Of a stretch of DNA of 26,548 bases, positions 1 to 24,626 are shown piece by piece. A program made the position numbers and the translations under genes. Below the pieces are notes generated by a model. The model was not told where the DNA came from. It saw only the letters and a program-made list of their open reading frames with translations, and made no database searches. The DNA is taken from positions 1 through 26,548 of the IMG/VR virus record IMGVR_UViG_3300047457_001449. The stretch is one strand, 5' to 3'. The DNA comes from a virus. Position 1 is the stretch's first letter, and each line of letters opens with the position of its first letter.

Positions 1-1398
1 ATTCTCAATAGCCCAGACTCAACAGAGATGGCACTTGAAGTGCTCTCCATGCTGCGAGCAGAGGGCGAGCACATCGTCTGCTCTCTTGGGCAGATCTGGC
101 AGTATCAAAAGAACAGGTGGCGACCCATTGAAGAGCACATCCTCAACGGCTTTGTGCAGAGGCTTCGAGGGAGATATGCTTTTGCCAACAGGCTGACGGC
201 CAAAGGCGAGCGCTCGACCATGGTGTTGCGCATCGAAGATCACCACTATCGGGCAATCAGATCCATCATTCTCACCGACTCCAAGCTCTGCTGCCCGAAC
301 TTTTTTGACAATGCTCCGAAGGGCTTTGCTTTTAGAAATGGCTTTCTGAGGCAGCATCCAGAGAACGTCACTCCAAGGCTCACTCTAGAGCCACATGCGC
401 CCGAGCATCGACAGATGTTTGTTGCGTCTTTTGACTACATCAAGGATGCAGAAGCTCCCGTGTTTCGCAGGTTCTTGGGCACTGTTCTACCCGGAGACAA
501 TCCGAAGCAGGGCATCATGCTTCAAGACCAGCTGCTGCAGTTTGTTGGTGCCTGCATGATGGGCGATGCCACAAAGTACCAAAAAGCAATGTTGCTCTAT
601 GGAGAGGGAGCCAATGGCAAGTCGACGTTCATGGAGATCGTCAAGGCAATTTTCCACAAAGAGCAGATCTCCCTTCTCACTCCTCAAGACCTCTGCGACG
701 ACAAGAACTATAAGCTCATCATGCTTGCCAATGTCCTCATCAACATGCCGGCAGAGCTGCCTGTTCGTGATCTTCTCGAATCAGAAAAGATAAAGTCTGT
801 CATCTCTGGCGATCAGGTCAATGCTCGGCAGATTCGAGAAAAGGCAGTCACGTTTGTGCCGAAGGCTGGGCATCTCTTTGCAGGCAATGATCTGCCCAAG
901 ACATCTGATCAATCCTATGCCTTCTTTCGTAGGTTCTTGGTCATACCATTCACTGTCATCATTCCAGAAGAGAAGAGAGATCGAGACCTCGTCCAGAAGA
1001 TCACCACAAAGGAGATGCCTGGAGTGGTGGCGGCCATTCTTGAGGCTTATGAGACATTGCTCGAAGACAAGGTCTACAGAGGCAGCCAAGATGAAAAACA
1101 GCTGAACTTCGAGTGGAGAATCCAGACAGACCCAATGCTTGTTTGGTCGCAAGAAGTACTATGCCGACCATCAAGTGAGGCTCTAAACCGAGTCGTCCCG
1201 AGCCGATGGTTCACTGCCAAAGAAGTGTATCGAGACTATAGCGAGTGGTGCAAAGAAGCCAACTGCAAGCCATTCAACTACATCAACTTCACTAGACAGA
1301 TCCAAAGAAAGGAATGGCAGCACAAAAAGAACAAGTATGGCTCTATGCTACTCCTGCCACTGCCAAAAGAGGTGACAGATGAAGAGCCAGATTTCTGA
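1..1398 (+). CDS. D5/P4-family primase C-terminal SF3 helicase (5' end may lie outside window)
   Basis: ATP-driven replicative helicase of the phage/plasmid primase type, expected to form a ring and open the phage origin. Counting from the first ATG (position 28), residues 192-200 form the Walker A loop (GEGANGKST). A Walker B-like strand lies at about 230-244 (LIMLANVLINMPAEL). Residues 285-308 carry the SF3 sensor and arginine region (AGNDLP, then FFRRFLVIPF). Residues 1-150 resemble the D5 N-terminal domain. The frame is open to the left edge, so the protein may continue upstream into a primase domain; if not, the ATG at 28 gives 456 aa. Iteron-like repeats begin inside the last codons and continue in the gap behind the gene, which fits a self-encoded initiator/helicase. 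The family call is firm; the full length is unknown. Confidence 0.9.
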   Translation: MLNSPDSTEMALEVLSMLRAEGEHIVCSLGQIWQYQKNRWRPIEEHILNGFVQRLRGRYAFANRLTAKGERSTMVLRIEDHHYRAIRSIILTDSKLCCPNFFDNAPKGFAFRNGFLRQHPENVTPRLTLEPHAPEHRQMFVASFDYIKDAEAPVFRRFLGTVLPGDNPKQGIMLQDQLLQFVGACMMGDATKYQKAMLLYGEGANGKSTFMEIVKAIFHKEQISLLTPQDLCDDKNYKLIMLANVLINMPAELPVRDLLESEKIKSVISGDQVNARQIREKAVTFVPKAGHLFAGNDLPKTSDQSYAFFRRFLVIPFTVIIPEEKRDRDLVQKITTKEMPGVVAAILEAYETLLEDKVYRGSQDEKQLNFEWRIQTDPMLVWSQEVLCRPSSEALNRVVPSRWFTAKEVYRDYSEWCKEANCKPFNYINFTRQIQRKEWQHKKNKYGSMLLLPLPKEVTDEEPDF

Positions 1399-1498
1399 TC
1401 TGTCACCCTATCTGTCACCCTATCTGTCACCCATAAGTCGCTGTTTCTTTGGTGCTTTTTAGATGTGGTGACAGAATGACAGATGTTTTCTGGGAAGC

Positions 1499-1573
1499 AC
1501 TATATATAGAAAAAAATGCATGGACAGAGCAGAGAGAGAAGAGAGAGAGCACAAAAATATTTCTCTATATATG
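1499..1573. other. A+T-rich and purine-rich segment, candidate DNA unwinding element
   Basis: Between the left and right repeat groups lie two TATATATA-type tracts (around 1501-1508 and 1566-1572), A-runs, and a purine stretch of GA repeats around 1530-1550. This is strikingly A+T-rich compared with its GC-rich surroundings. It would be the natural melting site if the repeats are an origin. No credible gene crosses it: the open frame at 1449-1712 translates the repeats themselves and has no good ribosome-binding site. Confidence 0.45.
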
Positions 1574-1642
1574 GCCTTTGCCAGCCTCTCATCTGTCACC
1601 CATCACTTTTTTAGGATTGCTGTTTACTATCAATGGTTTAGT

Positions 1643-1674
1643 GGGTGACAGATGCTTTTCTCGATCTGTCACCC
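1643..1674. promoter_or_regulatory. Perfect 11-bp inverted repeat just upstream of the next start codon
   Basis: Two iteron copies face each other here: GGGTGACAGAT at 1643-1653 and ATCTGTCACCC at 1664-1674, with a 10-nt spacer. The element ends 12 nt before the ATG at 1687 and directly abuts its ribosome-binding site (GAGG, 1678-1681). It could be a paired protein-binding site (origin or operator) or, as RNA, a hairpin affecting translation of the downstream gene. No convincing sigma70 promoter was found next to it. Confidence 0.5.
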
Positions 1675-3537: not shown

Positions 3538-3972
<435 letters not shown>

Positions 3973-24239: not shown

Positions 24240-24626
24240 ATGTCTGATAAATCAACATTTTCTCGCAATGCCGTCGTCAATGCCCTGCTCCGCAACACGA
24301 CCCTCACCGGCATCAGCCCCTTCGTGGCGCTCTTCATCGGCGATCCGTATGGAGCAGGTGTCGAGGTCTCGACAGTGGGGACCAACTACAGCCGTCAGTC
24401 TGTCACCTTCTCTGCGCCCTCCAATGGTGCGACAAGCAACAGCAACACCATCAGCTTTGGCGTAGCCTCCGCATCGTACGGCGGCACCGTGTCGCACTTT
24501 GCGCTGATGGACAACAGCACAGGCGGCAACATCTTGTACGCCGATGCCTTGACCGTGGCACAAGTAGTCAACACAAACAATGAGCCCAAGTTCGCAGCGA
24601 CCGCAATCACAGTGCAGGAGTCATAA
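24240..24626 (+). CDS. Small tail appendage/fibre-associated protein
   Basis: A 128-aa protein with a conserved phage pattern: an N-terminal helix TFSRNAVVNALLRN, a strand SPFVALFIGDP, NYSRQSVTF, then TISFGVASASYGGTVSHFALMDNSTGGNILYADAL. Similar proteins ('v.LF.g......~..yaR..v.f', 'i.F..a...wG.v....l.D....Gn.ly') are found in tail-fibre regions of many phages. Their exact role is not settled, probably structural. AGGAG (24229-24233) at 6-nt spacing precedes the ATG. It sits between the fibre gene and a pair of paralogues. Confidence 0.65.
   Translation: MSDKSTFSRNAVVNALLRNTTLTGISPFVALFIGDPYGAGVEVSTVGTNYSRQSVTFSAPSNGATSNSNTISFGVASASYGGTVSHFALMDNSTGGNILYADALTVAQVVNTNNEPKFAATAITVQES

Follow-up and report, generated by a model that had tools for sequence, protein, structure and literature searches.

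The origin layout considered here is already known from the SaPI/PICI and P4 satellites; in the present case, it was found in a phage. According to PMC6092414, the PICI origin is located directly 3' of rep and has its iterons in two sets, one on each side of an A+T-rich region, and rep together with ori of EcCICFT073 is functional and replicates. SaPI Rep and SCCmec Cch2 use their C-terminal domains to bind repeats lying immediately downstream of the gene or operon that encodes them (PMC7581432), and the alpha protein of P4, also an SF3 helicase, binds the origin repeats via a C-terminal winged helix (PMC4234260). In the window, i.e., the whole stretch of DNA analyzed (a complete IMG/VR record, 26,548 bp), region 1370–1674 very probably represents the replication origin of the phage, with iterons predicted from the sequence to be read by the adjacent SF3 helicase. 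This interpretation, put forward earlier in the sequence-only reading, is well supported by the absence of a second cluster in the contig and by the recurrence of the iteron beside related helicases. Several observed features support it: the repeats and their arrangement, the domain signature of the helicase, the general location of such arrays 3' of SF3 genes and the same iteron near divergent relatives. An uncultivated phage consequently gains a testable pair of origin and initiator.

The gene of the presumed initiator is represented by its 3' part (positions 1–1398, plus strand), its 5' part lying off the contig. The presence of an SF3 helicase gene next to the repeats, as had been claimed, was confirmed by a profile match to DUF5906 (E-value = 2.5 × 10−13), by matches to phage primase families (E-values down to 6.5 × 10−57) and by the Walker A motif GEGANGKST; the VapE-like and D5_N profiles matched more weakly. 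The best solved structure for the helicase profile was 7ola (database title "DNA primase"), which we take to be the SaPI5 primase-helicase. The presumed reader of the iterons is a C-terminal winged-helix domain (1219–1350, plus strand) assigned to Pox_D5 (PF03288), which matched the last 96 residues with 22.1 bits, barely above the curated cut-off of 21.4, and weak Cdc6_C and RFX winged-helix matches were found on the same C-terminus. The model of the last 95 residues had a helix–helix–strand–strand order, as in a winged helix (moderate pLDDT of 65.6), and its matches in the PDB were winged helices (Cdc6/Orc1 on origin DNA and RFX), none of them significant (best E-value = 0.16). An AlphaFold model of the whole helicase fragment was discarded (pLDDT = 39).

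The repeat array is genuine. All six exact 11-mers ATCTGTCACCC previously counted were located, five on the plus strand (1398–1408, 1410–1420, 1422–1432, 1591–1601 and 1664–1674) and one on the minus strand (1643–1653), the first three being in tandem at a period of exactly 12 bp, as reported. The one near copy and two partial copies were found on the minus strand as well, namely, ATCTGTCACCT with one mismatch (1370–1380, within the helicase CDS, where it codes for part of ..EVTDE..) and an inner pair with two mismatches each, TTCTGTCACCA (1466–1476, with the 9-mer core kept) and, 8 bp from it, ATCTGTCATTC (1474–1484). The extent of the cluster, given as 1371–1674, was correct at its end, while its start is at 1370. 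The octamer CTGTCACC was present in eight exact copies within 305 bp of the window, whereas no octamer was counted more than three times when the whole window was shuffled 60 times under a first-order Markov model. The lone distant 9-mers were present at 24399 and 25227 as described, and no second comparable array was found elsewhere in the record. The iterons have unequal spacers and lie on both strands, with no pattern of head-to-tail duplication. A blastn search with the array gave no match in phages, and in plasmids only matches with an E-value of about 7.

The helicase stop codon ends at 1398, so that the array, with its first iteron at 1370, starts in the last codons of the gene; it then occupies the intergenic space ahead of the next gene (1687–2094). 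The latter position is what would be expected if the repeats were an operator array, through which the gene at 1687 or the early operon is controlled by a repressing or activating protein, perhaps the helicase, with replication starting elsewhere; initiators often autoregulate, which also counts for this explanation. It is nevertheless considered unlikely, since the cluster is not repeated at any other gene start and since six of the nine copies are in the first half of the array, inside or near the 3' end of the helicase gene. In addition, a search around the array revealed no terminator-like sites and a single promoter-like site, at chance level, and such arrays occur 3' of SF3 genes irrespective of the phylum sampled (see below).

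The favored interpretation of the region as an origin is consistent with its base composition. As claimed earlier, an A+T-rich block flanked by repeats is present: the A+T content of 1485–1590, the presumed melting region, is 60% versus 43% overall, a value among the highest 0.5% for windows of this length (the contig maximum is reached in the 106-bp window with its first base at 1456), and the iteron sets 1370–1484 and 1591–1674 lie on either side of it. In the proposed mechanism, the SF3 helicase would bind the nine ATCTGTCACC(C) iterons via its C-terminal winged helix, assemble on both iteron sets beside the block, melt 1485–1590 and then begin unwinding, and replication in vivo would start here. 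The suggested GC-skew check gave no usable switch because the array sits at the contig end. An imperfect inverted repeat of 28 bp (75%; 1490–1517/1557–1584), containing TATATATAGA/TCTATATATA, was noted inside the block, where it brackets a purine-rich GAGAGA run. No stable single-strand fold or hairpin was detected in the A+T-rich block (z = −0.02 relative to shuffles), and no Rfam families or tRNAs were detected in the window.

Comparative analysis revealed that the layout fits SaPI/PICI better than P4. As in SaPI/PICI, the putative origin is immediately 3' of the SF3 gene (first copy at 1370, stop codon ending at 1398), two iteron sets flank an A+T-rich stretch, and the presumed initiator, an SF3 helicase, has a predicted C-terminal DNA-binding domain (Pox_D5, barely over the cut-off); the comparison concerns the layout. 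A difference is that the element in the window has virion genes, whereas PICI are satellites without them. ORFs for two SSB-like proteins, terminase, portal, protease, major head and tail proteins were found downstream, and because the terminase, portal, capsid and tail genes are its own, the element is a tailed phage and not a satellite or a PICI. The match of the SSB-like gene at 3538–3969 was strong (E-value = 2 × 10−30); that at 2145–2507, in the same module, was weak, divergent and below the cut-off (E-value = 7 × 10−4).

In the sequence-only reading, the origin had been described as P4-type. This holds for the SF3 helicase with a C-terminal winged helix and for an iteron one base apart, and does not hold for the iteron length and the single cluster. 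The annotated type 1 ori repeat of P4 is CTGTTCACC, one base longer than that of the window, so that the core was rightly said to be one base short of the P4 iteron (GGTGAACAG in P4 versus GGTGACAG in the window). The core in the window is CTGTCACC, and the two copies of CTGTTCACC are scattered, with none in the array, and at chance level. P4 has mixed-strand repeats in crr directly 3' of alpha, where crr consists of two repeats of 120 bp; it also has a separate ori, more than 2 kb from alpha, and repeats of type 2, whereas one cluster instead of ori and crr was found in the 26.5 kb of the window, a linear contig that may be incomplete. In P4, primase is fused N-terminally to the helicase; in the window, the corresponding 5' part lies beyond the contig end. 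The phage also differs from P4 in having its own head and tail genes. SCCmec Cch2 is similar in having an initiator helicase, repeats downstream of the operon and binding by the C-terminal domain, but its iteron is AAGTG in three copies and the element is different. Thus, the window has a SaPI/PICI-like origin layout on a phage and is neither a strict P4 origin nor a PICI.

When viral contigs were scanned for the iteron, arrays of it were found 3' of an SF3 gene in five (L002, L512, L516, L536 and L013), whose helicases had an identity of 21–24% to that of the window (the alignment for L013 alone being not significant). The expectation that the repeat would be found beside related helicase genes was therefore confirmed in these contigs, but six named phages had no CTGTCACC at their homologous primase genes. 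Counted from the stop codon, with the strand following each position, the order of copies in the window was −27−, 1+, 13+, 25+, 69−, 77−, gap, 194+, 246−, 267+, and that in L002 was −15−, 10+, 22+, 33+, 70−, 77−, gap, 174+, 181+, 228−, 240−, 267+, 324+, the order of the left block (−, +++, −−, gap, +) being common to both. Close variants of this plan were found in L013, L516 and L512, whereas L536 shared the iteron; a similar order was thus characteristic of four of the five contigs, and the inner minus pair (1466 and 1474 in the window) had counterparts in L002, L512 and L013. A perfect two-fold palindrome of iterons, with a central gap of approximately 100 bp, was found in two other loci, L282 and L290, and two-fold symmetry was significant in 8–9 of the 39 surveyed arrays, as well as in L002. 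For the window array, it was not significant (two mirrored pairs, p = 0.63), and dyad symmetry is consequently not claimed for it. Among viral contigs with the same iteron, terminase was present in L013, L529 and L113 (L113 being counted for its terminase and iteron), which, together with the window, suggests that this origin layout is also a phage format.

A survey of flanking arrays was performed on loci picked without using the repeat, to avoid circularity: DUF5906 genes were taken from about 1300 genomes, sampled from one phylum and three classes, and an array was defined as four or more copies of any octamer not of low complexity in 450 bp of flanking sequence. Of 197 non-redundant 3' flanks, 73 (37%) contained an array, compared with 5 of 131 control 5' flanks and 4 of 119 control 3' flanks of other ORFs from the same loci (3–4%), and shuffled individual flanks seldom reached four octamer copies. 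Arrays are thus common next to helicase genes of this SF3 (DUF5906) family, irrespective of the phylum sampled, and in 50 of the 73 they start no more than 60 bp from the stop codon; by the same 450-bp octamer criterion, 63% of the surveyed SF3 loci had no array. The iteron sequence varies among loci. The commonest 5-mer, GTGAC/GTCAC, which is the core of the repeat in the window, was found in 9 of 53 non-redundant near-stop arrays, and one locus, L308, carries the P4 form GTGAACAG. The survey extends a feature described for satellites (SaPI, PICI and P4) and provides a rule of thumb for finding origins, namely, to search the sequence immediately 3' of the SF3 helicase gene. An unrelated array, TCCCCTAA in five copies from the stop codon of the SF3 gene, was observed in Staphylococcus phage vB_SpsX-DSP2.

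Triple-octamer arrays of CTGTCACC numbered at least 120 in viral contigs, versus about 0.2 expected from base composition. This expectation was rejected as a null, since 45 triple arrays were obtained with the reversed octamer used as a control, 5 of them also 3' of SF3 genes, so that linkage to SF3 is not peculiar to CTGTCACC; for the same reason, array frequency by itself is of little value, and what is informative is where an array lies with respect to the SF3 gene. Triple arrays from genome contigs, mostly within long ORFs, were set aside. That arbitrary octamers such as the reversed one form arrays too would be in line with a neutral minisatellite without function or, alternatively, with a partition, packaging or integration site. 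Both possibilities are extremely improbable for the window, given the copies on both strands, at unequal spacers and not head-to-tail, the recurrence of the strand order in divergent contigs and the strong enrichment of arrays 3' of SF3 genes.

Among the 120 CTGTCACC triple arrays listed, 67 are inside HTH_36 genes, so most lack a link to SF3. Where the arrays have a period of 20–23 bp, 66 of 75 viral loci have the array within an HTH_36 gene (for example, L007:3948–3998, L008:1773–1822 and L015:5779–5829), and of the 67 loci whose array is in an HTH_36 gene, 45 also have a DnaB helicase gene. These arrays represent a lambda-O-like layout with the octamer of the SF3-linked arrays, and phage initiators of the HTH_36/DnaB type may use it independently. 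One octamer with two unrelated initiator classes is a puzzle of convergence or of a common reader, and the motif alone therefore does not identify the reader. It should be noted that arrays of CTGTCACC were also observed 0.5–1.2 kb 3' of VapE-type genes in five loci (L062, L019, L074, L052 and L531), i.e., farther from the stop codon than in DUF5906 loci.

The occurrence of the octamer in phages with unrelated initiators, often by dnaB, is a point in favor of an origin whose reader is not the SF3 helicase but a host protein or a different phage protein. This appears quite unlikely for the window: the arrays begin at the SF3 stop codon, and the iterons differ among close SF3 genes and follow the C-terminal domain, for which reason a fixed host reader is not expected. 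Reading by the SF3 helicase was further assessed in a set of 38 loci, with 37 pairs showing clear C-terminal similarity; the mean iteron similarity of these pairs was 0.556, versus 0.369 when permuted (0/5000). A Mantel test of iteron against C-terminal similarity over all pairs of an earlier set of 32 loci was null, and only pairs with detectable C-terminal similarity were deemed informative. Similarity of the helicase core domain correlates with iteron similarity too, and the covariation among close pairs is thus inseparable from shared ancestry of the whole protein. Related initiators with differing iterons (L287/L414 versus L290/L416, and L258 versus L355) provide ready pairs for work on C-terminal specificity. 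The helicase cores of L258 and L355 are near-identical, whereas their iterons are TTGAACGGGT and TTTGACGGGT, respectively (GAAC versus GAC), a one-base difference that is the same as that between the iterons of P4 and the window.
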